Under the pieces are notes generated by a model that was given only the letters and a program-made list of their open reading frames with translations, was not told the origin of the DNA and did no database searches. Position numbers and translations under genes: made by a program. Positions 20,521 to 35,706 of a DNA stretch of 64,000 nucleotides are shown here, piece by piece (the stretch's first letter is position 1; each line of letters opens with the position of its first letter). The DNA is from Fibrobacterota bacterium (GTDB taxonomy: Bacteria; Fibrobacterota; Fibrobacteria; UBA11236): NCBI GenBank assembly GCA_028287505.1, contig JAQBPN010000076.1, forward strand, positions 126,069 to 190,068, read 5' to 3'.

Positions 20521-22641
20521 TCAGGCGTCCAGCACCTTGCGGATTTGCCGAACCAGGGATTTGGGCATGAAGGGCTTTTCCAGGAAGCTCACGGGAAGCC
20601 CGTTGGCTTGCGCGTCGGGGAAATCCTCCCGGCCGAATCCGGACATGAAAACCGCCTTCATCCCGGGATGGGCCGTGAGCAGTTTTTCCACCAGCCGGCG
20701 TCCGCCCAGCTTGGGCATTTGCAGATCGGTCAGGACCAGATTGATGGGTTCGTTGCTGGCCGCGGTGACTTCCAGGGCCTGCTCCCCATCCTTCGCCTCC
20801 AGCACCGAATAGCCGTCGGCCTTGAGGATGCTGGAAAGCAGAAAGCGGACATCGTCGTCATCTTCCACCAGCAGGATGGTTTCCACGCCGGACTTGATTT
20901 CGGCCTGGGCGATGGGGGCGGCAGGGGCCGCCACCGCGGGTTCATTGAGCCGGGGAAACAGGAGGTTGATGGCGGTTCCTTTTCCGGGACTGGATTCCAC
21001 CTGGATGTCCCCGCCCGCCGATTTCACAATCCCGTAAACGGTGGAAAGTCCCAGGCCCGCGCCTTTGCCGATGGGTTTGGTGGTGAAGAAGGGCTCGAAC
21101 AGGCGCGCTTTGATCTCATCGCCCATGCCGATGCCGGTGTCGCGGACGCTCAGGATTACATGCCCGGTCGCCCCGGCATCCGAATGGAATGCCGGGCGCC
21201 AATCCTGGCCCGAAGCCTCGCTGGTCGATACCGTCAGCTTGCCTCCCCTGGGCATGGCGTCGCGGGAGTTGGCGATGAGAATGGAGATCACCCTTTCGAT
21301 CTGGTTGATGTCGGCGAGCACCGGCGCCAACTGCGGATCCAGATCGAGGATCAATTCGATGTTCTCGTCCATCAAACCGGTGAGGCCCGGGAGCTGTCGG
21401 GAAATGACGGAATTGAGATCGAGGTTGCGGGGAGAAACCGTTTGCTGCCGGCTGATGGAGAGCAACTGCCTGGTCAACGCGGCCGCCTTGTCCACCGACC
21501 CCAGAATGCCCTGCGCGTGCGCGACCAGGGGACTTTTCGATCCGAGCGCCTGGCTCAGAAGATCGGCATGCCCGTTGATCGTGGTCAAAAGGTTGTTGAA
21601 ATCGTGGGCGATGCCTCCGGCCAGGCGGCCTACAGCCTCCATCTTCTGGGTCTGGAGCACGCGCTGCTCCAGGTTTTTCCGCTGGGTGATGTCGCGCGCG
21701 ATTCCCCAGATGCCGCCCGGTCGATCATCCTGGATGGCCGGGGCGCACCCGCATTCCACCACGATTTCCCCTCCCGGCTTGGCGCGCAGACGCATTTCCT
21801 GGGGCGGAAAGAATTCCCCGCGCAGGACTTTGCGGAACGCTTCCCAGGCGGGAACGGCGTCGGCGGGATTCAGGAGTTCGGCAAAGGGCCGGTAGAGCCA
21901 CTCCCGGGAGGACCATCCCGTGGACTTTTCGAAAGCCGGGTTGAGGGAGGTGATGATGCCTTCGCGCGACAAGGTGAAGATGATGTCCTGGGATTTCTCG
22001 ACCAGGTTGCGGTAACGGCGTTCGGAACGGCGGAATACTTCTTCCGCGCGTTTACGATCGGTCACGTCCCGGAGGATCCTCACCACGCCCATGACGTGGC
22101 CGTTGCTTTCGCGTATCAATGCCGACTTGGCTTCCACCGGCGTCCTATCCCCGTCGCGGGCCACCACGTCCGCATCCATCGGGTTGGCGGCGGAATGGGA
22201 GGGCGCGTAGGCATCGCGGTCTTCGGCCGCGTCCGGCGCGCGACGCTCGATGCGGAGAACGTCTCCCAGCGGCCGCCCGCAGGCCTCGCCCAGGGACCAG
22301 CCGGTCAGGGCTTCCGCTTGTGGATTCAGAAAAGTGATGCGGCCTTTTTCGTCGCTCGCCACCACGGCATCGCCGATGCTGCGCAAGGTGGTGAAAAACC
22401 ATTCCTGGCTTTCCTGCAATTTGGTTTCCATCGCATGTTGTTGGAGGGCCGTTTCGATGGCGCCGCGGAGTTTTTTCTCGTGGATGGCCAAGGCGGTGTC
22501 TCCGTCCGGAATCCCTCCGCCGGGCCCGGCTTCCGCCGTGTCGATTGCGCTGACGCGATACCCCAAATCCCTCAGGCGGGCTTGTAAATCGCGGGCCGCC
22601 GCGCTTTCATCTTCGACCACCAGGATGCGGGGATTGCCCAT
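20521..22641 (-). CDS. PAS-containing hybrid histidine kinase with truncated N-terminal receiver
   Basis: The 706-residue sensor kinase has, in order: a receiver-like remnant (1-70), two PAS domains (about 80-195 and 205-320), a HisKA domain with phospho-acceptor His346 in GGIAHDFNNLL, an HATPase_c domain (SVRDTGIGM, FFTTKPIGKGAGLGLSTVYG) and a C-terminal receiver (ILLVEDDDDVRF, LVLTDLQMP, FLEKPF). No transmembrane segment is visible, so it is cytosolic. The N-terminal remnant opens as ILVVEDESAAARDL but jumps to a helix like the end of a receiver and lacks the phospho-acceptor Asp and conserved Lys. The ATG at 22641 has a GGGAGG site 7 nt upstream; the TTG at 22656 is rejected. No cognate response regulator is adjacent. 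Confidence 0.9.
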   Translation of the reverse strand: MGNPRILVVEDESAAARDLQARLRDLGYRVSAIDTAEAGPGGGIPDGDTALAIHEKKLRGAIETALQQHAMETKLQESQEWFFTTLRSIGDAVVASDEKGRITFLNPQAEALTGWSLGEACGRPLGDVLRIERRAPDAAEDRDAYAPSHSAANPMDADVVARDGDRTPVEAKSALIRESNGHVMGVVRILRDVTDRKRAEEVFRRSERRYRNLVEKSQDIIFTLSREGIITSLNPAFEKSTGWSSREWLYRPFAELLNPADAVPAWEAFRKVLRGEFFPPQEMRLRAKPGGEIVVECGCAPAIQDDRPGGIWGIARDITQRKNLEQRVLQTQKMEAVGRLAGGIAHDFNNLLTTINGHADLLSQALGSKSPLVAHAQGILGSVDKAAALTRQLLSISRQQTVSPRNLDLNSVISRQLPGLTGLMDENIELILDLDPQLAPVLADINQIERVISILIANSRDAMPRGGKLTVSTSEASGQDWRPAFHSDAGATGHVILSVRDTGIGMGDEIKARLFEPFFTTKPIGKGAGLGLSTVYGIVKSAGGDIQVESSPGKGTAINLLFPRLNEPAVAAPAAPIAQAEIKSGVETILLVEDDDDVRFLLSSILKADGYSVLEAKDGEQALEVTAASNEPINLVLTDLQMPKLGGRRLVEKLLTAHPGMKAVFMSGFGREDFPDAQANGLPVSFLEKPFMPKSLVRQIRKVLDA

Positions 22642-23117
22642 TCGATTGCCTCCCAAGGCTTAAGGCGTTCCCACATTTTACTCCCCCATGACGGAGTGAA
22701 GCAATCCTTGGATATTTTTTGGGAGTCGGAACTTCCATCTTTACCTTTTTTTGGGAAAATTGCCTTCAATCAGGGAATTCTTCGTTCTCGGAGGGAAAAC
22801 GGAAAGGCTCAAAATATTTTCAAAATCATCCGCCCAAATATCGTTTTCTGACATACCTTTTACGGGTGGTGGCATAGGCGGGGCCAAAATGGCCCCCGAG
22901 GTTTTCAACGATCGCCCGGTTGGCGGGAAACTTGAGAACTAGATTGCTACTCGTTCGTGGGGGCGAGCGTCAGGTTTGGGGGGGTAGGAGCATCGCTGCT
23001 TCAACTTTATTCAATTCCCTCTACTCTTGAAAGGTGGATGGTTTGGGTATTTCAATCAACAAAAACAAGCTTGATTGTCCGTCTAGGGGCGTCATGGGTC
23101 ATTCGTGTGGGAGAGAT
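22642..23117. promoter_or_regulatory. AT-richer intergenic region before the DUF1080/barrel cassettes
   Basis: No gene is supported in this 476-bp gap, which separates the divergent kinase gene from the first cassette. It should hold both promoters. An inverted repeat CAATCAA (23053-23059) with TTGATTG (23071-23077) lies 41 nt before the cassette start. The sequence ATTCAATT also occurs upstream of the second cassette (about 28880), hinting at shared promoter elements. Confidence 0.35.
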
Positions 23118-24353
23118 ATGGAATCAAATATGTCGTGGATGAAATACGCCGTAAAGGCGATGATGGTGGTTGGAACGATATCGGCCATTTCCGTCTGGGC
23201 CCAGCCCACACCGGCCCCTACTACAGGCGATCTTCCCTGTAAGGATGAAGTCGACATCGTCCCGACCGATACGGTCAACTCCGGCGGCGGCGTCGATGCG
23301 GACGGGTACTTCCCCATGTTCGACGGAACATTCAAGGGTTGGTTCCAGAGCTGCAAGACCGGCCATTCCAACGGAAGCACCGTCGGCGCGATTTTCCGCC
23401 TCGGCACGGCCGATGGCAAGCCGGCCATCTATTCGACCCAGCGCGGTACCAATACCGGCGGTTTGATGATGACCAACAAGACCTTCACCAACTACGAGAT
23501 CCAGCTGGAAACCTGGCCGGATTACGGCAATGATGCCGGTTTGTTCAATCGCACGCCCATCACGGGCCGCTGCTTCCAGACCGTGCTCGACTATATCGGT
23601 AGCGCCGCGGTAGGCGGTACCTGGGGCGAGGGCGGCTTTCCCAGCCGCGATTTCCGTCCCTACGCGTTCGCCGGTGACGAAAAGACCATTTCCATCCCGG
23701 GTCTGCCGGGCGGAAACGAACTCAACAATTGGACGACCATCACCTCCAAGCTCAACCCCACCAGCTTCGGCTGCCCGGCTTCCGGTTGCACCCAGACCGA
23801 ATGGCGCAATCTCTGGGACATGGACGGATGGAACGACATCAAAGTCCAGTTCTACGGCGGTTCCGCAGCGGGAACGGGAAACGTGCATATGAAGTTCTGG
23901 TTCAAGAAGATGGCGTCCACCACCTGGGTTCCCGTCATCCAGGACACCACCTTCAATCAGACCACGGTTCCCCCCGGCTTCATCGGCCTCCAGGTCCACG
24001 GCGGCGGTCGTTTCGGCGGCGCCAAGGGTACCTGGTACCGTAACATCCGTTGGAAGCCCCTCGACGACAAGGGCAATGTGATTCCCCAGAAGCCCTTGGT
24101 TCCGACTGCGGTGTCCGCGGTGGATCGGGTGAAGTTCCACTTCTCCGCGAGCGCTTCCGTTCTTACCGGCAACATCGATCAGAACTATACGATCACCGTC
24201 AAGGATGCGAAGGGAAAGAATCTCGAATCCTTTTCCGGCACTCCCGGAAAGGTCAACCATGCGTTCGCCACGAACGTGCGTGGAATCCTCTTCCTGAGCA
24301 TCAAGACCGCACGCAGCGTTGAATCCTTCAGCGTAGTGCGCGCTTCCAACTAA
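23118..24353 (+). CDS. Secreted DUF1080 (3-keto-disaccharide hydrolase-like) protein, cassette copy 1
   Basis: A 411-residue exported protein: signal peptide (about 1-29, ending VWAQ), a DUF1080/PF06439 jelly-roll domain (about 50-325) and a C-terminal beta domain of about 75 residues. Domain hallmarks: MFDGTFKGWFQSC, IQLETWPDYGNDAGLFNRT, CFQTVLDY, DGWNDIKVQ and GFIGLQVHGGGRFGGAKG. Characterised DUF1080 members bind or hydrolyse 3-keto-glycosides; the substrate here is unknown. The C-terminal part (YTITVKDAKGKNLESFSG) resembles type IX secretion sorting domains, an inference. The ATG at 23118 follows GGGAGAGAT, so the longer frame from 23034 is rejected. It is the first gene of cassette 1 and is paralogous to 28944-30074. 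Confidence 0.82.
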   Translation: MESNMSWMKYAVKAMMVVGTISAISVWAQPTPAPTTGDLPCKDEVDIVPTDTVNSGGGVDADGYFPMFDGTFKGWFQSCKTGHSNGSTVGAIFRLGTADGKPAIYSTQRGTNTGGLMMTNKTFTNYEIQLETWPDYGNDAGLFNRTPITGRCFQTVLDYIGSAAVGGTWGEGGFPSRDFRPYAFAGDEKTISIPGLPGGNELNNWTTITSKLNPTSFGCPASGCTQTEWRNLWDMDGWNDIKVQFYGGSAAGTGNVHMKFWFKKMASTTWVPVIQDTTFNQTTVPPGFIGLQVHGGGRFGGAKGTWYRNIRWKPLDDKGNVIPQKPLVPTAVSAVDRVKFHFSASASVLTGNIDQNYTITVKDAKGKNLESFSGTPGKVNHAFATNVRGILFLSIKTARSVESFSVVRASN

Positions 24354-24366
24354 ATCGCTTGTCCAT

Positions 24367-24399
24367 CGTCGCCGTTCCACTTAGGGAACGGCGGCGACG
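24367..24399 (+). terminator. Strong hairpin between DUF1080 copy 1 and barrel A1
   Basis: GCCGTTCC (24371-24378) pairs with GGAACGGC (24385-24392), and the flanking CGTC and GACG extend the stem across a small bulge. The downstream sequence CATTTCCTTTC is only moderately T-rich. It sits 14 nt after the DUF1080 stop, so it may partly terminate transcription and make the first gene more abundant than the barrels. Confidence 0.5.
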
Positions 24400-24499
24400 G
24401 CATTTCCTTTCAAACAAAGATCATTTTTCTAAACTTACGCAAAAGCGTGACGCTTGTGATACTTGTTCAATCCTATCCCTTTTGGAAAAGTTGACCCAC

Positions 24500-25945
24500 A
24501 TGAGATTAATCCCCTGGTCGGTCTCAATACTCGCTCCGCTCCTGGTATTCGGAGAGACCAAATTCACATTCCACGGAAAAGCGTGGATGGACTACGGCAG
24601 GATCATGAATGCCGAAGACACCATCGTGAACACCCTGAATCCCGAGATCACCCTGAACTATAACGGCAACGCGCTCCAGAGCGTGGGCGGGCAAATCACC
24701 GTGCTCGCGGATCTGAGCGACCATCTGGAAGCCGGGTTGGGGTATGGAGCCGCCAAGGGCAGTCACTCCCTGGGCAACGGACCGAGCGAGTATCTGACCA
24801 TTTCCCTTTTCGAGAACTTCGTGACCCAGTCCCGGTTGACCTGGTACATGGGTGATAAAGCGGCTCCCGGCCTGAGCGTAACCGTGGGCGGCTTTCCCTA
24901 CATCTACAACAAGGACGTCAAGAACCTGGGGCTGTACCTGCTCCGGGGACCCGTCTACCCGGGAGCCCTGATGGGCGGCTTCGGCGAGTACAGCGCCGAC
25001 TCCACCAAGGCCAATATGCTGGGCATCAAGGTGCATCATGCCATCGGCGAATTCAGCCAGGACCTGATCCTCAACAACGAACGCGAAATCCCTCCCACGC
25101 TCGATTGGAGCTTGGCCTACCTGGCCAAGTACAAGATGGGCGCGCTGGAACTGGGTGGCGGCGTGAACTTCTACCGCCTCATTCCGTACAACTCCATCCT
25201 GGAAACTCCGGGCAAGGACACCAGTCTCGTGAACGGTTCGCTCCGCAAGCATTATATCGAAATCGATTCCACCAACCCGGCGGCCAAGGACACCACCTTC
25301 TTCTCCAATCAGGGGACCAAGGTGGTGGGAACGATGAGCCTGGACTTGAAGCAACTGTTCGGCGTATCCTCCGAATCCATGAATCCGGACGACATGAAGA
25401 TCTATGCGGAAGCGGGCATCATCGGTCTCAAGAATTACGGCACGGTCTACGCGAAGATGTCCGAACGCATCCCCGTCATGGTCGGCTTCAATGTCCCGAC
25501 CTGGGGGCTGCTCAGCCATCTGTCCGTGGAAGTGGAATACTACGGCGCCAAGTATCGCAACGATTTGGGCGCCGTCGGGAACAATAACGCCGTGGCGCCA
25601 TGGACCCGTCAGGATCACCCGATTCCCTCTCCGAAGCCCCTCACCAATGCCGATTACAAGATCGACACCGCCGGATATTTCAAGGTGGGCGGAGATACGA
25701 CCGGGGTCTACGTCCGGGGAACGGCGATGGACAAAGAGAATCTGACCATGGACGATCTCAAATGGTCCGTCTACATCGACAAAGTCGTCGCAAGGCATAT
25801 CCAATTCGTGGCCCAGGTCGCCAATGACCACTACCGTCCCCGGCCAATCGCTTCCGGCCTCATCAGTTCGCAAGGCGGGACCGCCGAGGCCTTCACCTCG
25901 CCCAAGGACTGGTACATGATGTTCAGGGTGGGGTACTTCTTTTGA
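24500..25945 (+). CDS. Outer-membrane beta-barrel paralogue, type A, cassette 1
   Basis: The 481-residue protein has a short signal peptide (about 1-19, LLVFG). It then shows the family pattern: FHGKAWMDYGRI near the N-terminus, GGQITVLADL, the central VKNLGLYLLRGPVYPGALMG, GGGVNFYRLIP, and RIPVMVGFN with VEVEYYGAKY. It ends in VGYFF; a C-terminal Phe in an alternating strand is the usual BAM recognition signal. Alternating amphipathic strands throughout indicate a barrel, likely porin-like. Type A is defined by comparison with 30076-31620: both share RGTA-x-D, a DD-x-KWS segment and KDWY-x-M-x-R-x-GYFF. The start has only a weak GGAAAAG site. I do not recognise a named family. Confidence 0.7.
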   Translation: MRLIPWSVSILAPLLVFGETKFTFHGKAWMDYGRIMNAEDTIVNTLNPEITLNYNGNALQSVGGQITVLADLSDHLEAGLGYGAAKGSHSLGNGPSEYLTISLFENFVTQSRLTWYMGDKAAPGLSVTVGGFPYIYNKDVKNLGLYLLRGPVYPGALMGGFGEYSADSTKANMLGIKVHHAIGEFSQDLILNNEREIPPTLDWSLAYLAKYKMGALELGGGVNFYRLIPYNSILETPGKDTSLVNGSLRKHYIEIDSTNPAAKDTTFFSNQGTKVVGTMSLDLKQLFGVSSESMNPDDMKIYAEAGIIGLKNYGTVYAKMSERIPVMVGFNVPTWGLLSHLSVEVEYYGAKYRNDLGAVGNNNAVAPWTRQDHPIPSPKPLTNADYKIDTAGYFKVGGDTTGVYVRGTAMDKENLTMDDLKWSVYIDKVVARHIQFVAQVANDHYRPRPIASGLISSQGGTAEAFTSPKDWYMMFRVGYFF

Positions 25946-25974
25946 AACGCATACAGGGAAAATCGGATACAAAT

Positions 25975-27306
25975 ATGCGATGGAAACTCGTTATCCTGTT
26001 GACCGCCGGCCTGATGGCGGCACCGCTCCGGGCGGAGATGGACGATCTGAAGTTGGACTACCACGGCGCCGGTTGGCTGCAGACCGGCCGCGTCGAGGAA
26101 AGCTTCGCGCTGCCCAATGACGGCAACGCTTACAACAAGAATTGGGTCGGACAGTCCGGCGGCCTATTGACGGTCCATGCCACCATCAATGAGCATTGGG
26201 ACGGCGCGCTGGGCATCGGAACCGTTCTGGTCCAGTTGGCCCGCGGCGCCCGCTTGCTTTCCAACAAGTGGTACCCCTTCTGGGTGTCCTGGGTCGATGA
26301 AGCCCGTATCAGCCATACGTCCAGTCTTTTCACCGGGGACGACGAGCTGAAGCTCACGTTCGGTTCCTTCCACTACGGCTACAATCCGGACGTCAAGAAT
26401 CTCGGCCAGTACCTGTTGCACGGGTATGTCTATCCGGGAGCGCTCGAGTCCGGATTCACCGGACCCTTGGGCGTTTTCCAGGCCATCTCCGGAGCCCAGG
26501 CTTCCTACAAAATCGGCGGATTCAAGAACGATTTGAACCTCCAGGTCGAGACCGAGGAAAAGCCGCTGTACGACTTGTCCGTTTCCGATATCGTAACCTG
26601 GCGTCTGCATCCGGCGCTCGAGATCGGCGCCGGCGTGAACTTCTACCGTCTTCTTCCCGCAAACATGAAGGCGACGAATCCGGGCGATGATTGCGACCCC
26701 AACCAGCTCGGCCCCTATGCGAATGCAGCGGAGGACAATCCTTGCTTTATCGTGATCAGGAAGGATTCCACCAATGACAGCATCCTCGAGAAGGTGAATC
26801 CTTCCCTGCAGGGCACGAAGCTCATGGGGCGATTCCATTTCGATCCGAAGGCCCTGTTCTCCTCCGGCGACGACGGGGTTCTCGGCGGCGATGATCTGGT
26901 CCTGTACGGCGAAGTGGGCCTTATCGGCGTGAAGGATTATCCCCGCTTCTACGATAAGATCGGGCGCCGGATTCCGGCCATGATCGGCTTCAACCTTCCC
27001 GGATTCAGGTTCCTGAATTGGTCGATAGAAGCGGAATACTATGCGTCCAAGATCTCCTCGGACAATATCGCGGCCAGGAACGGTTCGCCCATACCTATCA
27101 AGGATGATGTGCTGAACTCGAAAAGGGATGACTGGAAGTGGTCCCTGAACGCCTCCAAGGTCTTCGCCGGCCATGCCATTCTGATGGGCCAGGTAGCCAA
27201 CGATCACTTGCGACTGGGCGGTAATCATGATACGGATACAGGTATAGAGGCGTTGCGGACGCCCTCGGACTGGTATTGGACCACCAAAATCGCGTACTTT
27301 TTTTAG
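25975..27306 (+). CDS. Outer-membrane beta-barrel paralogue, type B, cassette 1
   Basis: The 443-residue product has a signal peptide MRWKLVILLTAGLMAAPLRA, then LDYHGAGWLQTGRVE, NPDVKNLGQYLLHGYVYPGA, GAGVNFYRLLP, GTKLMGRFHFDPKALF, RIPAMIGFNLPGF and the terminal TTKIAYFF. It aligns best with the type B gene at 31617-33059: both open with YHGAGW-x-Q and share the acidic CDPNQLGP/KDCASKG insertion region and a KDYP segment before the RRIP motif. An in-frame TTG at 25942 overlaps the previous stop as TTGA; the ATG at 25975 gives the better signal peptide, but the TTG cannot be excluded. Likely a porin-like outer-membrane protein of unknown substrate. Confidence 0.7.
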   Translation: MRWKLVILLTAGLMAAPLRAEMDDLKLDYHGAGWLQTGRVEESFALPNDGNAYNKNWVGQSGGLLTVHATINEHWDGALGIGTVLVQLARGARLLSNKWYPFWVSWVDEARISHTSSLFTGDDELKLTFGSFHYGYNPDVKNLGQYLLHGYVYPGALESGFTGPLGVFQAISGAQASYKIGGFKNDLNLQVETEEKPLYDLSVSDIVTWRLHPALEIGAGVNFYRLLPANMKATNPGDDCDPNQLGPYANAAEDNPCFIVIRKDSTNDSILEKVNPSLQGTKLMGRFHFDPKALFSSGDDGVLGGDDLVLYGEVGLIGVKDYPRFYDKIGRRIPAMIGFNLPGFRFLNWSIEAEYYASKISSDNIAARNGSPIPIKDDVLNSKRDDWKWSLNASKVFAGHAILMGQVANDHLRLGGNHDTDTGIEALRTPSDWYWTTKIAYFF

Positions 27307-27321
27307 GATTCGAGGAGCGCC

Positions 27322-28647
27322 ATGCTAATGATCTCCAGTTCAAATATCCGTTCCTCGCTTGCCGCCCTCGCACTCGCAGCGGCCCTCTCGTCGGGCGTAC
27401 ATGCGGATGATGCCAAGATGACCTTCAGCGGAGCCGGCTGGACCCAGTTCGGCATGATCGTGAAGAGTCTCGATACCACCGAAAACAAGGTGTTGAACGG
27501 CAGAGGAATGCTCGGTACCGGCGCCCAGTTCGCCGTGGAGTACCGCGGTTCGGAAAAGATCGAAGTCAATGCCGGACTCGGGATGGGTTCCGGCCACAAC
27601 CTTGCCGTCCGCAAGGAGAATGGTTTCTACGCTCCGTTCGGAACGGGCGCTTACGTGGCCGCGGCCAACGTAAAGTATTCCTTCTGGAACGAAGACGCCA
27701 AGAACCTGTTTTTCAAAATCGGCCTGTTCCCGTATGACTATGCGCCGGACGCCCAGAATCTGGGTCTCTACCTCCTGCGCGGCCCGGTCTATCCCGGCTT
27801 CCTGATGTCCGGTTTCGAAACCAAAGAGGTGTTGCCCGTCGCCAATATGCTGGGATTCCAGTTCCATCATCAGACCGGGTTCTTCGAACAGGATCTGCTC
27901 TTCTCCTTCGACAGCGATTGGTTCCCCTACTGGGACATCTCCCCGGCCTATATCGCCAAGGTCCATGCCGGCTCGGCTTTGACCATCGGCGCAGGCGTCA
28001 ATCTCTATCACTGGATCCCGGTCGACAAGAAGCTGACCTCCGAGAAGATCAATGAGGTTGCCTACATCGATACGGCCACGAATGATACGACTTACATTTC
28101 CTTCAAGGGCACCAAGCTCATGGGCAATTTCAGCTTCGACCCCAAGGCCCTGTTCGGCTATTCCGGGGACGGCCTGCTCGGGGCTGAGGACCTGAAACTG
28201 TACGGCGAAGTGGCCGTGATCGGTCTCGACAAGGACAAGGCGCATAACGCCTTGTACGGCACGATTTCCAAGCGCATGCCGATGATGGTCGGATTCAACC
28301 TGCCCGCTTTCAAAATCCTGGATCGGCTGAACGTGGAAGTGGAATATTACCAGGCTCCCTGGGTGGATGACCCTTCCATCTACAACCACACTTCCGGTCC
28401 CCAGGTCACGCCGATCCCGAAGATCAGCGCGCTGGATACGAACAATACCAAGGACAACCTGAAGTGGTCCATCTACGGTTCCCGCGTGATTGCGAACCAT
28501 GTCAAGCTCAGCGTCCAGGCCGCCAGTGATCATTCCCGTCCGGGTCTGTTCCAGGGATACGGGGACAACAATCCTCCCATCAACCATGTTCCGTACTTCT
28601 CGCCGAGCGAGTGGTACTGGTCGACCAAGATCGCCTACTTCTTCTAG
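27322..28647 (+). CDS. Outer-membrane beta-barrel paralogue, type C, cassette 1
   Basis: The 441-residue protein has a signal peptide (about 1-29, VHA-DD), then TFSGAGWTQFGMI, PDAQNLGLYLLRGPVYPGFL, MSGFETKEVLPVANMLGF, GTKLMGNFSFDPKALFG, RMPMMVGFNLPAF and a terminal STKIAYFF. The type C hallmark shared with 33094-34524 is GLDKDKAHNALYG before the RMP motif. The ATG has a good GAGGAG site 15 nt after the previous stop. A hairpin terminator follows at 28687, ending cassette 1. Confidence 0.72.
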   Translation: MLMISSSNIRSSLAALALAAALSSGVHADDAKMTFSGAGWTQFGMIVKSLDTTENKVLNGRGMLGTGAQFAVEYRGSEKIEVNAGLGMGSGHNLAVRKENGFYAPFGTGAYVAAANVKYSFWNEDAKNLFFKIGLFPYDYAPDAQNLGLYLLRGPVYPGFLMSGFETKEVLPVANMLGFQFHHQTGFFEQDLLFSFDSDWFPYWDISPAYIAKVHAGSALTIGAGVNLYHWIPVDKKLTSEKINEVAYIDTATNDTTYISFKGTKLMGNFSFDPKALFGYSGDGLLGAEDLKLYGEVAVIGLDKDKAHNALYGTISKRMPMMVGFNLPAFKILDRLNVEVEYYQAPWVDDPSIYNHTSGPQVTPIPKISALDTNNTKDNLKWSIYGSRVIANHVKLSVQAASDHSRPGLFQGYGDNNPPINHVPYFSPSEWYWSTKIAYFF

Positions 28648-28686
28648 GCTCCGCCTTTTCCAAACCCGATCCTGACCTGATTGTCG

Positions 28687-28716
28687 CGCCTCCCTTCCCC
28701 GGGAGGCGTATTCGTT
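28687..28716 (+). terminator. Intrinsic terminator ending cassette 1
   Basis: Perfect 8-bp stem CGCCTCCC/GGGAGGCG with a 6-nt loop (28687-28708), followed by TATTCGTTT. It lies 40 nt after the stop of the type C gene. Confidence 0.65.
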
Positions 28717-28853
28717 TCCGGGCGCTCGATCGCCCTTCTCTTCCGGGTCCCCTTGGGAAAAAGCTTCTTGGGTTTTCTACGGATTTAGGCGGGTTCCGGG
28801 ATCAGGGTGTTGGATAGTTTGATCGCTTTATGGCATTAATACGTCCAAACGCC

Positions 28854-28881
28854 TTGACTCCCCAGAGCGGTGGATTACATT
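28854..28881 (+). promoter_or_regulatory. Candidate sigma-70-type promoter of cassette 2
   Basis: TTGACT (28854-28859) and TACATT (28876-28881) are separated by 16 nt, with a predicted leader of about 55 nt before the DUF1080 start at 28944. This matches five and four positions of the consensus hexamers respectively. Confidence 0.4.
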
Positions 28882-28943
28882 CAATTATGTCTTCGGCGGA
28901 TTCGAGCCGGGGGAATCTGTTGGGATTTTCAGGAGGTAAGTCT

Positions 28944-30074
28944 ATGGTGGGAGTGAAGTTTTTTGCCTTGGCTTCGGCCCTGAGCGCGGTCGCGGTTTTC
29001 GCCCAGCCAGGCGCCGTTCCCACGACTACGGAAGCACCCTGCCAGGAGACCGCGGGAACGGACGAAGTCAGCATTCCCATGGATTCGGGATTCGTCGGCA
29101 TTTTCAACGGAACCGATTTGAAGGGCTGGTGGAACAATTGCCACGGTGAAGACGCGAACCACAGCAACACCACCAAGGGCGGCATCTACAAAGCGGACCC
29201 GACCCTCCACGCCATCTATACCCAGCAACGCGCCACCACGCCGGGCGGATCCGCCCTCTGCACCAACAAGAAATACGGGAACCAGGAAATCATCGTCGAG
29301 TATTGGGCCGATTTCGGAAATGACGCGGGCATTTACCATCGCACCACGGAGAAGGTCCTGGCCTATCAGACCGTGCTCGACTACAAGCCCGACAATTGCA
29401 TCGGCGGAAGCTATCCCCAGGAAATGGAAAACGCGGGCAATCCGTTCTACAATTGCTCCTACAAGTTCGGCGCCTCCGAGACCGCGCCTTTTTCCGGAAC
29501 CCAGGGAAACGCCGGCATCGCCAACAAGGCCACCCTGGTCCAGGCGGACATGTATGATCCCAACGGCTGGAACGAATTGCGGACGAAAGTCTGGGGCAAT
29601 CCCCCGCATCACCAGGCTTGGATGCGGAAGCTCGGCGGCGCGAAGTGGATCCAGACCTTGGATGTCACCTGGCCGGGATACTACCTCACCCCAATCCCTA
29701 CGGCCACGGGCTATACGGCTTTGCAGGTCCATGGCAACGGATACTGGAACAAGACCATCCTGGGCGACTGGTACCGCAATATCCGCGTCCGCGAGTTGGA
29801 CGCCAATGGTAATCCCATCCCGCCGACCACTTCCCTGAAGCCGCGCTTGAACCCGGGCGTGAAGGTTTCCCTGACCTCGGCCGGACTTGCAGGCTGGCTG
29901 GACCGGGACTATGCCGTCAAGGTGACGGACGTGAACGGAAAACTTTTCGAAGCCTTCCCGGCCCATTCCGGAAATTTCACGCACTCATTTTCCAAGGGTT
30001 CTCCCCGCGGGATAACGTTCGTCCATCTGATTGCGGGAGCCCAGAGCCGGGTCATCCGCGCCGTTCCCCTCTGA
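28944..30074 (+). CDS. Secreted DUF1080 (3-keto-disaccharide hydrolase-like) protein, cassette copy 2
   Basis: The 376-residue paralogue of 23118-24353. Signal peptide about 1-21 (VAVFAQ), DUF1080 domain about 40-295 with IFNGTDLKGWWNNC, IIVEYWADFGNDAGIYHRT, AYQTVLDYKPDN, NGWNELRTKVWG and GYTALQVHGNGYWNKT, then a C-terminal beta domain (YAVKVTDVNGKLFEAFP) like that of copy 1. It shares the NDAG-x-x-x-RT and YRNIR motifs with copy 1 but is clearly diverged. The start at 28944 has a near-perfect AGGAGGT site; the longer frame from 28830 is rejected. The stop is separated by one base from the GTG of the type A barrel, so they are translationally coupled, unlike copy 1. Confidence 0.82.
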   Translation: MVGVKFFALASALSAVAVFAQPGAVPTTTEAPCQETAGTDEVSIPMDSGFVGIFNGTDLKGWWNNCHGEDANHSNTTKGGIYKADPTLHAIYTQQRATTPGGSALCTNKKYGNQEIIVEYWADFGNDAGIYHRTTEKVLAYQTVLDYKPDNCIGGSYPQEMENAGNPFYNCSYKFGASETAPFSGTQGNAGIANKATLVQADMYDPNGWNELRTKVWGNPPHHQAWMRKLGGAKWIQTLDVTWPGYYLTPIPTATGYTALQVHGNGYWNKTILGDWYRNIRVRELDANGNPIPPTTSLKPRLNPGVKVSLTSAGLAGWLDRDYAVKVTDVNGKLFEAFPAHSGNFTHSFSKGSPRGITFVHLIAGAQSRVIRAVPL

Positions 30075-30075
30075 C

Positions 30076-31620
30076 GTGGATTTGAGATTCCCCACATATT
30101 GCCTTGCCGCCGCACTCGCGGCCGTGTCCGTGTTCGCGACGGATGTCGCCTACCGCATCAGCGGACAGGGTTGGGCGGAATACGGACGGGTCGCCCATGC
30201 CACCGACACCTTGTTGGTGAACATGAACGGGAACGCCCTGCAAAGCGCGGGCGCGCAATTCACGGCTTATGCGGACATCGGCGAGAATTGGGAAGGAGCC
30301 TTCGGCATCGGCGGGTTCCAGGTCCATCACATGCAAGGCGGAAGCGGCGTGTCCTCCCGCAGCATGCAGTTCTATTTCAGGAATTTCATCACCGAGTCCC
30401 GCATGACCTATTTCCGCGGCGGGAAGGCGGACCCGGCCTTCAGCCTCACCTTCGGCAACTTCAACTACAACTACAACCCCGATATCAAGAACCTGGGCCT
30501 CTACCTGTTCCGGGGAACCGTCTATCCGGGATTCCTGGTATCGGGATTCATGGACCCGGCCGTGGACGATACCAAAGGAGACATCCTTGGCCTGAAGGCG
30601 CATAACCGCTTCGGGAACCTGAGCAACGATTTGATCTTCGCGAATGAACGTCAGTTCCCGCCCACCTTCGATTGGTCTCTGGGAGACGTCCTCAAATACC
30701 GGCCCATCGAAGGCGTGGAAGTGGGGGCCGGTTTCAATCTGTACCGGATCCTTTCCGCCAACGGGGAGTTGACCACGCCGGACAATGCGGATTATTACTC
30801 CCAGGATTCCATCGCCACGGCCAACGGCGGAAGCCCATACGATCATGATTACACGGAAGGGATCATCGATACCCTGAGGAATGCCCAAGGGCAGCCCGTG
30901 ATCGACAGCGCGACCCTGCTGCCCCGTCTCCATTACGTTCCCACCGTCACTTATACCCACCAAGGCATCAAGCTGATGGGCATGGCAAGTTTCGATCCGA
31001 AAAAGGTGTTCGGCTTCGGAGCGGGTCTCGGCGCAGAGGATCTGAAGCTGTACGCGGAGTGCGCCCTCATCGGAGTGAAGAACTACGGAAACGTCTATTC
31101 CGATCGCTCTCAGCGCATCCCCGTGGTGGTGGGTGTGAACCTGCCCGCGTTCAAGTGGCTGGACGTGGTTTCCCTGGAGGTGGAATATTACGGGGCGCGC
31201 TACCGCAACAACATTTCCAAATTGACCCAGCGGAAATATTCCGACCTGCCGTCGCCGATTCCGGTCTCCTACAACACCTATGATCCCATCAGCAGCAAGG
31301 GCGTCGATCCCGTCACCGGCCGCTTGCTGAAGGACAGCACGGATGCGGCAGGAAATCCCATCAAGGTGCCGGGCGATGTCCAGATCCGGGGCACCGCGCT
31401 CGACATCGAGCACCTGACGCAAGACGATTGGAAATGGTCCTTGTTCTTCCAGAAGACTTTGCGCCAGCATATCCGCTTCTCGGGCCAGATCGCCAACGAT
31501 CATTTCCGGCCCCAGCCGACGCATACCCTGTATTCGGATCTCGACGGGACCGGCGCCACCGAACTCTCTTCTTCCATGAAGGACTGGTATTTCATGTGCC
31601 GGTTGGGGTATTTCTTTTGA
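30076..31620 (+). CDS. Outer-membrane beta-barrel paralogue, type A, cassette 2
   Basis: The 514-residue protein starts at a GTG one base after the DUF1080 stop (TGACGTG) and has a signal peptide about 1-22 (VSVFATD). Family motifs: ISGQGWAEYGRV, NALQSAGAQFTAYADI, NPDIKNLGLYLFRGTVYPG, GAGFNLYRIL, RIPVVVGVNLPAF, VSLEVEYYGARYRNN and terminal CRLGYFF. It is the type A partner of 24500-25945 (shared NALQS-x-G, NERQFPPTFDWSL/NEREIPPTLDWSL, RGTALD). It carries longer loops than A1 between the YRIL and GIKLMG segments (about 250-300) and before the RGTALD segment (about 410-435), the places expected to face outside. Confidence 0.72.
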   Translation: MDLRFPTYCLAAALAAVSVFATDVAYRISGQGWAEYGRVAHATDTLLVNMNGNALQSAGAQFTAYADIGENWEGAFGIGGFQVHHMQGGSGVSSRSMQFYFRNFITESRMTYFRGGKADPAFSLTFGNFNYNYNPDIKNLGLYLFRGTVYPGFLVSGFMDPAVDDTKGDILGLKAHNRFGNLSNDLIFANERQFPPTFDWSLGDVLKYRPIEGVEVGAGFNLYRILSANGELTTPDNADYYSQDSIATANGGSPYDHDYTEGIIDTLRNAQGQPVIDSATLLPRLHYVPTVTYTHQGIKLMGMASFDPKKVFGFGAGLGAEDLKLYAECALIGVKNYGNVYSDRSQRIPVVVGVNLPAFKWLDVVSLEVEYYGARYRNNISKLTQRKYSDLPSPIPVSYNTYDPISSKGVDPVTGRLLKDSTDAAGNPIKVPGDVQIRGTALDIEHLTQDDWKWSLFFQKTLRQHIRFSGQIANDHFRPQPTHTLYSDLDGTGATELSSSMKDWYFMCRLGYFF

Positions 31621-33059
31621 TCGCCGCGACCCCGATCCGCAGGTTCCCTTCCGTCGCGGTCCTGGCCGCGTGCGGTGCGCTGGCCTTCTGCTCCATCTCC
31701 GCCGCATTCGCCGAAGAAGGCTTGAAGATCCAATACCACGGAGCCGGCTGGGTCCAGGGCGGCCGCATCGAACGGCAGACGGATACGCTTTCCGATCAGG
31801 GCGGCCAGAACTTCAACGACAATTGGACGCAGAATTCCGGCGGACAGATCACGGCCGTGGCGGATCTGGGCGGCGGTTGGGAAGGCGGATTGGGCCTGGG
31901 CGCCATCCAGAGCCCGCTGTGGTATCGCGGTTCCCGCAGATTCGACAAGGTGCCGCCGCTGACCTGGTCCCCTTACGTGACCGAAGCGCGCCTGACCTAT
32001 ACCGTGGGAGACTACGCGCATCCGGCCTTGCAGGTGACGGCCGGTTCCTTCCATTTCAACTACAACCCGGACGTGAAGAATCTGGGACTCTATCTGATGC
32101 GCGGACTGGTCTATCCCGGCATTGTCGTCTCCGGATTCGAAACCAAGGACGTGCTGCCCATCGCCAACGTGTTCGGCCTGGACGTCCGCCATGAATACGG
32201 GGGATACCGCGGCGATTTCCTGGTGAATTCGGAAACCGATATCAATCCCTATTTCGACCTCTCTTTCGCGTACGTGTTCAGCTATCGCTTCCTGGGCGCC
32301 ATCGAGGTGGGGGCCGGGGCGAATTGGTATCGGGCGGTGGCGCAGAAGCCGGAAATCACCAGTCCGACCAAGGATTGCGCGAGCAAAGGCACCACCAGCG
32401 TGGTGGGCGTGAACGGCGGGGACGCGGAGCTCTGCTATATCCTGGACACCAGCTACGTGGCCGGGCCCGCGGGCGCCGATTCGGCGGTGGTGGACACGAT
32501 CACCGGGTCCCTCTCGGGAATCAAACTGATGGGCAGGATGTCGGTGGATCCCAAGGTGTTGTTCGGGATCGGCGGTCCTTTCGGACCCAAGGATCTGATC
32601 GTGTACACGGAAGCGGCGGTATTGGGCTTGAAGGATTATCCGAAATACTACGCCGAGATCGGCCGGCGCATCCCCGTCATGGTGGGGATCAACCTTCCCG
32701 CCTTCGGATTCCTGGACGAGCTGAGCCTGGAGGCGGAATACTACGCGAACCGTAACATGGCGGATTACCAAAAGGAACTGGACGACAATTCCTGGGTCCC
32801 TCGGCCCAGGGCCTACAACAACGTGACGTTCGACAGCACCGGCGTGAGGAACGGATTCACGCGCACGGATACCCGCAGCGACAATTGGAAATGGTCCCTG
32901 TACGGGGACAAGGTCATCGCCGGTCATCTCAAGCTTTCCGCCCAGGTCGCGAACGATCATCTGCGCACGGGCGGGTTCTACCTGAGACGGTCGCAGACGG
33001 AAGTCCTGAGCGATACGTTCGACTGGTATTGGACCTTCAAGGTCGCGTACTACTTCTAG
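31617..33059 (+). CDS. Outer-membrane beta-barrel paralogue, type B, cassette 2
   Basis: The 480-residue product is predicted to start at a TTG overlapping the previous stop as TTGA; this yields a signal peptide MIAATPIRRFPSVAVLAACG followed by an Ala-rich cleavage site near AAFA. Family motifs: QYHGAGWVQGGRIE, GGQITAVADLGGGWEGG, NPDVKNLGLYLMRGLVYPG, SGFETKDVLPIANVFGL, GAGANWYRAV, RRIPVMVGINLPAF and terminal FKVAYYF. It is the type B partner of 25975-27306. The longer frame from 31428 lies inside the preceding gene and is rejected. Confidence 0.7.
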   Translation: MIAATPIRRFPSVAVLAACGALAFCSISAAFAEEGLKIQYHGAGWVQGGRIERQTDTLSDQGGQNFNDNWTQNSGGQITAVADLGGGWEGGLGLGAIQSPLWYRGSRRFDKVPPLTWSPYVTEARLTYTVGDYAHPALQVTAGSFHFNYNPDVKNLGLYLMRGLVYPGIVVSGFETKDVLPIANVFGLDVRHEYGGYRGDFLVNSETDINPYFDLSFAYVFSYRFLGAIEVGAGANWYRAVAQKPEITSPTKDCASKGTTSVVGVNGGDAELCYILDTSYVAGPAGADSAVVDTITGSLSGIKLMGRMSVDPKVLFGIGGPFGPKDLIVYTEAAVLGLKDYPKYYAEIGRRIPVMVGINLPAFGFLDELSLEAEYYANRNMADYQKELDDNSWVPRPRAYNNVTFDSTGVRNGFTRTDTRSDNWKWSLYGDKVIAGHLKLSAQVANDHLRTGGFYLRRSQTEVLSDTFDWYWTFKVAYYF

Positions 33060-33093
33060 GATGGCCGGAGCGATTGTGGAACGGAATGGAATC

Positions 33094-34524
33094 ATGAAGC
33101 ACCTGAACGCGATCCGGAAGGCCGTCGCTTTGGTGGCCGCCTTGGCTGCTTCGGCCGCAACGGCCGCTTCGGCCGCAACGGCCGCTTCGGCCGCAACGGC
33201 TGCTTCAGCCTCCGAGCCGGGAGCTTTGGACTTCAGCGGCGTAGGATGGGTGCAATACGGGCAGGTGGGGAACAGCAGCGATACCATCCCCAACAATTAC
33301 AACGGCAATCCCATGCAGAATTCCGGCGCTCAGATTTCCCTGAATGCCAGGATCAACGACAGGATGTCCGGCGCGGTGGGATTGGGCGTATACGAGGGGC
33401 ATGCCTTGGCCGGCCAGATTGAATCGGGCGGGCGCGTCGCGGTCTCCGCCAGTCCCTACATCGCCGCGGCCAATTTCACGTACCGGATCGGGGAAGAGGA
33501 AAGCCCCCTGCTCCAGGTGCGGGGCGGCCTGTTCCATTACAATTACGATCCCAACGTCAAGGATCTGGGCCTCTATCTGTTGCGCGGTTCGGTCTATCCC
33601 GGATTCCTCATGTCCGGCTTCGAGACCGCCGACGTGGTGCCGCTCGCCAACGTCCTGGGCTTGTGGGTGCGCAATACCTCCGGCATCCTGACCAGCGATC
33701 TGGTCGTAAACTGCGAAACGCAGTTGAAGCCTTATTTCGATCTGTCCGTCGCCTATATCGGCCGGGCCAAGCTGACGAGCTTCCTGAGCGTGGGAGCGGG
33801 AGTGAATTTCTACCGGTTGATCGCGAGCGACGGCAAGACCAGCCATGATCCTTTCGATCCGATCATCGAGAAGCCCGACGCGGACGTGAAGAATCCCTTC
33901 CAGCGGGAATTCATCTACGTGGACACGGTGCGGGCGGCCCAAGGCGCCACCCCCGCCGTGGTCGACACCACCTTCTTCGGGTTCGACGGCACCAAGCTGA
34001 TGGCCGATTTCGAATTCGACCCCAAGCCCCTGTTCGGCGCGCCCGGGATCCTGGGTCCCGAGGATCTGAAATTCTACGGCGAGGCCGCCGTGATGGGCCT
34101 CGATTTCGACAAGGCCCACAAGGCCGTCTACGGCGGCCTGGCCAACCGGATGCCGATCATGGCGGGTTTCAATTTCCCCGCCTTCGGATACCTGGATCAC
34201 CTTTCCCTGGAAGCGGAATGGTACGGCGCGAAATTCCGGGATGACACCTGGCGCATGCAGCCGGAAATCGATCGTCCCGAATCCCCGATCCCTTACGTGC
34301 GTCCCGAAGAGGATCCGAACCACCCGAAGGTGTATTCCCGGGACGATATCAAGTGGGCCTTGCACGCCGCCAAGACCATCCAGGGCCATTTCAAGATCAG
34401 CGGCCAGCTGGCCAATGACCATTTCCGTCCTTACGGGATCTCGGGCGCCAATCCCACCTATGAAGTGGCGATGTCCACGCCCAAGGATTGGTATTGGATG
34501 GCCAAGATCGCCTATTTCTTCTGA
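33094..34524 (+). CDS. Outer-membrane beta-barrel paralogue, type C, cassette 2
   Basis: The 476-residue protein shows DFSGVGWVQYGQV, NSGAQISLNARI, PNVKDLGLYLLRGSVYPGFL, GAGVNFYRLIA, GTKLMADFEFDPKPLFG, GLDFDKAHKAVYGG, RMPIMAGFNFPAF and terminal AKIAYFF, pairing it with type C gene 27322-28647. The signal peptide contains three direct copies of an 18-bp repeat (SAATAA residues). The start at 33094 gives the more usual signal peptide (MKHLNAIRK); an ATG at 33061, one base after the previous stop, is an alternative. It is the last gene of cassette 2; no clear terminator separates it from ribD. Confidence 0.72.
   Translation: MKHLNAIRKAVALVAALAASAATAASAATAASAATAASASEPGALDFSGVGWVQYGQVGNSSDTIPNNYNGNPMQNSGAQISLNARINDRMSGAVGLGVYEGHALAGQIESGGRVAVSASPYIAAANFTYRIGEEESPLLQVRGGLFHYNYDPNVKDLGLYLLRGSVYPGFLMSGFETADVVPLANVLGLWVRNTSGILTSDLVVNCETQLKPYFDLSVAYIGRAKLTSFLSVGAGVNFYRLIASDGKTSHDPFDPIIEKPDADVKNPFQREFIYVDTVRAAQGATPAVVDTTFFGFDGTKLMADFEFDPKPLFGAPGILGPEDLKFYGEAAVMGLDFDKAHKAVYGGLANRMPIMAGFNFPAFGYLDHLSLEAEWYGAKFRDDTWRMQPEIDRPESPIPYVRPEEDPNHPKVYSRDDIKWALHAAKTIQGHFKISGQLANDHFRPYGISGANPTYEVAMSTPKDWYWMAKIAYFF
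33148..33201 (+). repeat. Three tandem 18-bp repeats in a signal-peptide coding region
   Basis: GCTTCGGCCGCAACGGCC occurs at 33148-33165 and 33166-33183, with a one-base variant at 33184-33201. The unit is a multiple of three, so copy-number change would lengthen or shorten the hydrophobic core by six residues without a frameshift. Confidence 0.85.
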
Positions 34525-34570
34525 CATTTCCGCCTCCCTGGCCAAAATCCCCCTGCGTTATGATATTCAT

Positions 34571-34600
34571 CCGGTCGGCATCTCCCTGCCGGCGGACCGG
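34571..34600 (+). promoter_or_regulatory. Hairpin abutting the ribD start codon
   Basis: CCGGTC (34571-34576) pairs with GACCGG (34595-34600), and inside it GGCA (34577-34580) pairs with TGCC (34587-34590). It ends 2 nt before the ribD ATG, where a ribosome binding site should be, and no purine-rich site is visible. It could control translation of the riboflavin genes. It is too short to be an FMN riboswitch. Confidence 0.4.
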
Positions 34601-34602
34601 AC

Positions 34603-35706
34603 ATGAAAAAAACGCACGCTAGCAACCCCCGTTGGACGCCCACCGACAAACGCTTCATGGAACTGGCCTTCGCGGAAGCCCGCAAGGTCAAAGGCAAAAC
34701 CCTGCCCAACCCGCCCGTGGGCGCGGTGCTGGCCAAACGCGGCCTGGTTGAGGGAAAAGGCGGCACGCGGCCGGCCGGGCAGTCCCACGCGGAAATCGTC
34801 GCCCTGGATAAAGCCGGCGAAAAGGCGGAAGGCTCCACTCTCTACGTGACTCTGGAACCTTGCGGCCATCACGGCCGGACTCCTCCCTGCGTGGACGCCA
34901 TCATCAAGGCCGGAATCCGCAAAGTGGTCATCGCCATCCAGGACGCCAATCCCCTGGTGGGAGGCCAGGGCATCCGCGCCTTGCGCGACGCCGGGATTGA
35001 AGTGGCCGTGGGCCTGATGGAAGAAGAGGCGGCACTTTTCTATGAGGGCTTTTTCTACCGCATCACCCATGGCCGTCCGCTCATTCTTCTCAAGATCGCC
35101 CAAAGCCTGGATGGCCGGATAAACAGCCGCCCCGGGGTGGAGACCGCGATTACCGGCGAAGCGTCCCGGAAATGGACCCATGGTTTGAGATCCCTGGCGG
35201 ACGCGGTGGTGATCACCGGACGGACCTTGCGCGCGGACGATCCGGATTTGACGCCCCGGTTGGTGCAAGGACCGGCTCCCGAGGTTGTGGTCCTGAGCCG
35301 GCGCGGGCCATTCCCGGCCGAGGCCAAGATTTTTTCCAAGGATCGGAACGCCAAAACCCTGGTCCTGGGCGAATCCGGCGCGGGACTGCCGGCATGGGTG
35401 GAGCATGTGGCCGCCGAAGGTGCGCCTTCCGCTTCCGATCCGTTGGCCTCATTATTGGCCCTTTTCGACAAACGGGGCTACCATTCGGTGCTGATTGAAG
35501 GCGGACGGGAGCTTTGGACGCTTTTCCTGCAATCGGGAAAATGGGACAAGCTTTATGTCCTGACCGCGCCGCAGATATTCCCTGAAGGGGATAGATGGGA
35601 TACCGGACTGGCTCGGGACTGGGGAAAATCCCTCAAATTTCGTAATTTAACACCCTTCGGGAGTGATTTTCTGACGGAATTCGGACACTGTGAGCCCGAA
35701 GAGTAA
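34603..35706 (+). CDS. ribD: Bifunctional riboflavin deaminase/reductase
   Basis: Two consecutive steps of riboflavin synthesis: deamination of the pyrimidine ring, then NADPH-dependent side-chain reduction. The deaminase domain (about 12-155) has zinc and catalytic residues His62 and Glu64 in SHAEIVAL and Cys87 and Cys96 in EPCGHHGRTPPC. The reductase domain (about 160-365) contains KIAQSLDGRI, DAVVITGRTLRADDPDLTPR and LIEGGRELWTLFL. The 367-residue length is normal. It opens a rib operon in the order D-E-BA-H followed by nusB, a common bacterial order. Confidence 0.95.
   Translation: MKKTHASNPRWTPTDKRFMELAFAEARKVKGKTLPNPPVGAVLAKRGLVEGKGGTRPAGQSHAEIVALDKAGEKAEGSTLYVTLEPCGHHGRTPPCVDAIIKAGIRKVVIAIQDANPLVGGQGIRALRDAGIEVAVGLMEEEAALFYEGFFYRITHGRPLILLKIAQSLDGRINSRPGVETAITGEASRKWTHGLRSLADAVVITGRTLRADDPDLTPRLVQGPAPEVVVLSRRGPFPAEAKIFSKDRNAKTLVLGESGAGLPAWVEHVAAEGAPSASDPLASLLALFDKRGYHSVLIEGGRELWTLFLQSGKWDKLYVLTAPQIFPEGDRWDTGLARDWGKSLKFRNLTPFGSDFLTEFGHCEPEE

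Follow-up and report, generated by a model that had tools for sequence, protein, structure and literature searches.

A DUF1080 enzyme with three predicted porins: a recurring four-gene cassette of Fibrobacterota and its candidate role in surface glycan processing and uptake

Introduction

A 64,000-nucleotide stretch of a Fibrobacterota genome (assembly GCA_028287505.1, contig JAQBPN010000076.1; hereafter the window) carries, twice and side by side, a gene for a DUF1080 protein followed by genes for three outer membrane barrels, A, B and C. The locus raises two questions: what such a unit does, and whether its two copies arose from one another. The Caulobacter DUF1080 protein CCNA_01705 is important in lactose use and is a proposed 3'-ketolactose hydrolase, and a planctomycete member of the family is an endo-xanthanase (PMC9007349, PMC10881899). 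A full-text search for literature on Fibrobacteres with DUF1080 returned solely a planctomycete paper; full-text searches likewise found no paper on Fibrobacterota porins and none pairing ThuA with DUF1080.

Results and discussion

Two cassettes of the same gene order

Cassette I spans positions 23118-28647 of the window and cassette II 28944-34524, both in the order DUF1080-A-B-C (Table 1). An earlier note, made from the sequence alone, had described this four-gene unit in two adjacent copies; all eight open reading frames were recovered in place, on the same strand, together with every motif that it had quoted (RGTA-x-D, DWY-x-M-x-R-x-GYFF, YHGAGW-x-Q, KDYP and GLD-x-DKAH). The six barrels are alignable over their full length, with about 37-45% identity to A1, and the two DUF1080 proteins share 31% identity. 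The signal peptides of the DUF1080 proteins starting at 23118 and 28944, and of most cassette DUF1080s, end in AQ, so that cleavage would expose a glutamine; these ends resemble the Q-rule, described in the abstract of PMC5837995 as confined to Bacteroidetes. The signal peptide region of C2 (33094-33216) contains a short tandem repeat (SAATAASAATAASAATAASA).

Table 1. Features of the two cassettes and their flanks (window coordinates).
Feature	Position	Strand	Evidence or remark
Hybrid histidine kinase, PAS-PAS-HisKA-HATPase-REC, divergent from cassette I	20521..22656	-	Domain scan; conserved neighbour
Cassette I DUF1080 (3-keto-disaccharide hydrolase family)	23118..24353	+	Signal peptide; PF06439 42 bits, above cut-off
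C-terminal T9SS-like tail, cassette I DUF1080	about 24117-24350	+	hhalign, tail profile against T9SS-tail profile
Barrel A1, new family of predicted porins	24500..25945	+	A clade; no Pfam/NCBIfam family
Barrel B1	25975..27306	+	B clade in tree
Barrel C1, modelled 16-strand porin	27322..28647	+	C clade; AlphaFold; Foldseek
L3-position loop of C1, residues 137-175, strands 5/6	27730..27846	+	Model and conservation
Intrinsic-terminator-like hairpin 3' of cassette I	28686..28709	+	Same position in L039, L040, L041
Conserved block 5' of cassette II (L040; less in L039)	28810..28886	+	Contains promoter candidate 28854-28881
Cassette II DUF1080, signal peptide	28944..30074	+	PF06439 53 bits; fold match 9fbe
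C-terminal T9SS-like tail, cassette II DUF1080	about 29859-30071	+	Seven-strand C-terminal domain in model
Barrel A2, GTG start directly after DUF1080 stop	30076..31620	+	Alignment, tree
Barrel B2, TTG start overlapping A2 stop; start codon uncertain	31617..33059	+	Alignment, tree
Barrel C2	33094..34524	+	Alignment, tree
ribD, flanking gene after cassette II	34603..35706	+	Marks cassette II empty site

Distribution of the cassette

A search of the window's genome gave 33 matches to a profile built from the six window barrels and 32 to the DUF1080 family. Four DUF1080-A-B-C cassettes are present in this genome: the two in the window, a third on contig C7 and a fourth divided over the ends of contigs C89 and C78, which their placement in the tree suggests belong to a single cassette. 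The earlier statement that the cassette occurs twice is therefore right for the window and too low for the genome. Scanning a sequence collection with the barrel family returned 32 loci; every one comes from a record titled Fibrobacteres, Fibrobacteria or 'bacterium isolate AM_1606'. The DUF1080-A-B-C order is common among them, with tandem doubling in L039, L040, L042, L043 and L047 (the second cassette of L043 is cut by a contig end and incomplete).

In a sample of the phylum, close barrel matches occurred in all 10 sampled genomes of the window's family (f1), were absent from f2, the other family listed for the window's class, and gave way to mostly more distant relatives in the remaining Fibrobacterota families. 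The barrel family is specific to Fibrobacterota and occurs across the phylum. The search for DUF1080-A-B-C neighbourhoods in related genomes that the earlier note had called for yielded 23 cassettes in f1 (a count that takes in G089), with three consecutive barrels in A-B-C order wherever the contig allows; no intact one among the 23 has fewer than three barrels. Two irregularities were seen. The C barrel of the second L047 cassette (L047:14327-15765) is split over two overlapping frames, by a frameshift or an assembly error. Directly 5' of a complete cassette, L050 (6814-8184) has a barrel-less DUF1080 gene of the genus g2 tandem-partner type, as though the three porins that went with it had been lost.

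The window cassettes are deep paralogues

In a 77-row barrel tree, a single branch sets off each of A, B and C from the remainder in 98% of bootstrap trees; they form three clades across the 10 genomes, with the same cassette types recurring within each. Approximately unbiased (AU) tests rejected an A1-B1-C1 clade (p 3.7e-9) and an A2-B2-C2 clade (p 3.9e-5), and with them any cassette-wise grouping or homogenisation, bearing out the predicted positional pairing (A1,A2), (B1,B2), (C1,C2). The DUF1080 tree has groups compatible with those of the barrel tree, with fewer supported branches. Trees and AU tests together support the earlier proposal of an ancestral DUF1080-A-B-C unit, itself the product of barrel duplication, that was duplicated as a whole and then diverged.

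One part of that proposal did not survive. Two neighbouring copies in the same gene order are what a recent, plain tandem duplication of one operon would leave, a gene-dosage event without particular function. A sister grouping of cassettes I and II was rejected at p 9e-33, so a local duplication cannot account for the pair and the two are deep paralogues; moreover, every cassette type has orthologues in other genomes, and type II is missing from its site in L041 and L044. We regard recent tandem duplication as highly improbable. The barrel and DUF1080 trees and the AU tests therefore define four orthologous types: I (first in the window, widespread), II (second in the window; L039, L040), III (C7) and IV (C89/C78). 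Type IV is the weakest, its A and B barrels attaching with low support (56/93 and 53/93) and its members being unplaced in a smaller tree. A fifth group (the second cassettes of L042 and L043) may belong with either type I or type III, and orthology of cassette II with this genus g2 tandem partner (L042_u2/L043_u2) was rejected (p 0.0012).

In L039, L040 and L041 the histidine kinase adjoins cassette I (upstream in L041), and ribD directly follows the type I cassette in L041 and L044. Only the window, L039 and L040 have cassette II, placed after cassette I and before ribD; it is missing there in L041 and L044 and was either inserted at this site or lost in the other genomes.

The barrels form a new family with a predicted porin fold

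None of the six barrels matched a Pfam or NCBIfam family, porin profiles included, and the barrel profile had no match among PDB sequences. They constitute a new family of predicted porins, outside the family and structure libraries that we searched by sequence. An AlphaFold model of C1 with 99 relatives (pLDDT 89.8, pTM 0.87) predicts 16 antiparallel strands, by our own count from the model's strand list; strands 5 and 6 are joined by a long loop. The best Foldseek matches of the model are 16-strand porins (best E 3.5e-10), at modest TM-scores of 0.4-0.6 against known porins. No plug is present in any of the six, and TonB-dependent receptor identity was rejected.

Classical porins have their constriction loop, L3, between strands 5 and 6. 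In the barrel family, the loop at this position is 39 residues long, with a mean information of 2.31 bits and 20 of 39 positions highly conserved. Loops L1, L2, L5, L7 and L8 average 0.7-1.5 bits and the shorter L4 and L6 reach 2.30 and 2.16. Among the long loops of the family, the one at the L3 position is the most conserved; several strands towards the C-terminus equal or exceed it. In strand number and long L3, the barrels resemble general and carbohydrate porins with 16 strands (Rhodopseudomonas blastica porin, OmpF, OmpM1, chitoporin). They differ in their low identity to these (about 10%), in lacking a sequence-profile match to them, and in occurring as three paralogues per operon with an enzyme in the same operon.

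Family and fold of the DUF1080 enzymes

Both window DUF1080 proteins match PF06439 at 42.1 and 53.4 bits, against a cut-off of 26.8. The AlphaFold model of the cassette II protein (pLDDT 81) matches 4jqt, 4hxc, 3u1x and 9fbe with E values of 4e-11 to 2e-8; 9fbe, matched at 2.4e-8, is a 3-keto-glycoside eliminase/hydratase. A QxH motif is present in 22 of 22 cassette DUF1080s and a YRNI-type motif in most. From family membership and modelled fold, we infer that these proteins cleave 3-keto-glycosides. They share both with the DUF1080/PF06439 hydrolases and eliminase/hydratases (BT2157, CCNA_01705, 9fbe); unlike known DUF1080 proteins, they carry an extra C-terminal domain resembling those of type IX secretion system (T9SS) cargo, have domain insertions and are linked to three porins. 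In a further departure from known DUF1080 systems, no dehydrogenase gene was recognised adjoining the window cassettes.

C-terminal tails and the secretion machinery

The model of the cassette II enzyme sets its C-terminal 70 residues apart as a separate seven-strand domain. In hhalign, a profile of the cassette tails paired with one made from the tails of further proteins encoded beside barrels (96%, E 1.7e-9), whereas control DUF1080 windows not reaching the tail scored at most 5.5%. With the curated type A model TIGR04183, weak matches were obtained for 20 of 36 barrel neighbours (E of 0.1 or below) and for 11 of 22 cassette enzymes (E of 1 or below, the best being 2.2e-5); the two window DUF1080s have no TIGR04183 match of their own. 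The genome encodes T9SS machinery (SprA/Sov, TIGR04189 at 620 bits; PorV, PF19572) and has 42 TIGR04183 matches. At the profile level, the cassette tails thus appear homologous to T9SS tails, and export of the DUF1080 enzymes through this system may be inferred. Neither the tails nor the further members of the barrel family had been mentioned in the earlier note.

The cassette enzymes are like type A cargo (TIGR04183) in their seven-strand C-terminal tail, their signal peptide and the presence of SprA and PorV in the genome; they differ in window tails too diverged for the curated model and in their dedicated porin triplets. PorP/SprF and type B cargo pairs likewise place an outer membrane barrel gene beside a T9SS cargo gene, whereas here the tail is type A-like and the barrel family is a different one. 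PF11751 (PorP/SprF) matched none of the six barrels; it matched nothing in the genome either, and the profile's control was also silent.

Genomic company: sugar porins or secretion partners

In the window's genome, a DUF1080 gene lies within 1.5 kb of 8 of 16 barrel units (0.45 expected, P 3e-8). Further neighbours include additional DUF1080s, GSDH (PQQ-dehydrogenase), GH20, GH31 and GH116, and ThuA accounts for 17 of the 36 barrel-neighbour proteins scanned. The same neighbourhoods could be read otherwise, with the barrels as T9SS partners, anchoring or shuttling cargo as PorP/SprF does for type B and PorV for type A, and not as sugar channels. Most barrel units of f1 have a neighbouring gene whose product ends in a T9SS-like tail, and a TIGR04183 match lies within 1.5 kb of 5 of the 16 units (0.59 expected, P 4e-4); PorP is also known to bind type B cargo (review PMC11205867). 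We nevertheless consider such a role quite unlikely, given the 16-strand general porin fold, whose 50 best listed matches include neither FadL/PorV nor PorP, the high conservation of the L3-position loop, a PorV encoded by the genome itself, and units outside f1 that lack tailed neighbours and have MFS sugar transporters or cytochromes next to them.

Single barrels prevail in deeper Fibrobacterota, next to GH43, GH30, GH27, a sugar MFS transporter or a cytochrome-type protein. In 20 regions of other Fibrobacterota families, picked before their neighbours were viewed, the tail stood beside 3 of 21 units, against a background of 11 of 115 ORFs over all loci of that scan, two f1 loci included; the tail profile was trained on f1 tails and may miss diverged ones, such as those of the GH43 proteins of L094 and L103. 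Since most deeper barrels are single and tails show no clear enrichment next to them, the T9SS link is a trait of f1 and not of the barrel family as such, and a T9SS partner role was dropped as the family-wide function. The gene company of the barrels favours a sugar porin instead.

A subset of the deeper loci has a layout of its own. In L089-L093, L097, L099, L105 and L108, a single barrel directly follows a protein of about 630 residues with CxxCHP near its C-terminus; the four of these proteins that were scanned (L089, L090, L092, L097) match beta-propeller and MauG/cytochrome c models. The barrel is followed in L090-L092 by a gene of about 400 codons, which in L090 belongs to the L-PSP family.

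A candidate SusCD-less uptake system

Taken together, we favour with moderate confidence a model in which each cassette unites a surface enzyme processing 3-keto-glycosides with three dedicated carbohydrate porins, as an analogue of a PUL without SusCD; the model adds putative secretion, catalysis, substrate and pore selectivity to the observed gene order, phylogeny, predicted porin fold, enzyme family and fold, profile-level tail homology, T9SS core genes and gene neighbourhood. The surface glycan processing or uptake role first proposed for the locus remains the best reading of the enzyme family and fold, the porin fold and the neighbouring genes. Each cassette would be an operon serving to capture carbohydrates at the surface of the cell. 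The DUF1080 enzyme, which carries a signal peptide, would be routed by its C-terminal tail through the T9SS to the surface. There it would split 3-keto-glycosides, or some related glycan, that co-secreted dehydrogenases produce. The cleavage products would be admitted to the periplasm by A, B and C as 16-strand porins, with the conserved L3-position loop shaping a substrate-selective pore. Whole-unit duplication produced four or more orthologous types of cassette, which presumably serve different glycosides; the module is old and has been copied repeatedly, and it looks like this lineage's own means of sugar uptake.

Several observations count against this model: the window DUF1080s have no type A sorting match of their own, TM-scores are modest, the L050 DUF1080 is without its own barrels, and a common deeper subset of barrels adjoins a beta-propeller/MauG-type cytochrome protein and not a glycan enzyme. 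SusC/SusD PULs of Bacteroidota likewise join surface glycan-active proteins with outer membrane uptake barrels in operons, with many paralogous loci per genome. The present cassettes differ in having plug-less 16-strand porins in place of TonB-dependent receptors, an enzyme with a T9SS-like tail, and no SusD, for which the genome was searched with a positive Bacteroides control.

Because the barrel number is fixed at three, A, B and C could also be subunits of one obligate heterotrimeric porin, a refinement of the favoured model that does not exclude it. 16-strand porins are commonly trimers, and an obligate heterotrimer would explain exactly three barrels in fixed order in every intact cassette, as found over the 23 cassettes of 10 genomes. 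Rhodospirillum Por39/Por41 heterotrimers have been reported (PMC11369160). Three homotrimers of differing selectivity would be conserved as well, and other units of the barrel family have one or two barrels; we hold the heterotrimer to be possible, if rather doubtful. More speculative, and in our estimate unlikely, is an extension in which obligate A:B:C heterotrimers are each co-encoded with a T9SS-displayed 3-keto-glycoside enzyme of their own that docks at the pore, as a TonB-independent counterpart of SusCD diversified by whole-cassette duplication.

The favoured model, dedicated sugar porins with a surface enzyme, offers a candidate SusCD-free route for glycan products across the outer membrane in FCB bacteria other than Bacteroidota, above all the uncultured Fibrobacterota. 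The candidate system comprises a predicted porin family, spread across the phylum and unannotated in the libraries, that is linked with putative 3-keto-glycoside enzymes as well as, in a single family, with T9SS-like tails; it makes specific predictions on channel selectivity, subunit composition and surface display.

Transcription signals and flanking genes

The terminator proposed after cassette I received mixed support. A terminator consensus scan was not above chance, with 9 sites, including this hairpin, against 12.9 expected from shuffles; hairpins followed by T-runs nonetheless stand at the matching place after cassette I in the orthologous loci L039, L040 and L041. The promoter candidate of cassette II, TTGACT-16-TACATT within a 77-bp conserved block, has a counterpart of identical spacing in L040 (TTGACT-16-TAAATT) and is less well kept in L039. 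With terminator positions conserved and the promoter block partly conserved, separate transcription of the two cassettes, and hence their separate regulation as suggested earlier, is plausible. The histidine kinase, a neighbour of cassette I at 74-79% identity in L039, L040 and L041, is a candidate regulator. Just 5' of ribD, at 34540-34600, a motif CCCTGGCCAAAA...ATATTC is kept in the window, L040, L041 and L044, and probably marks the ribD promoter region.
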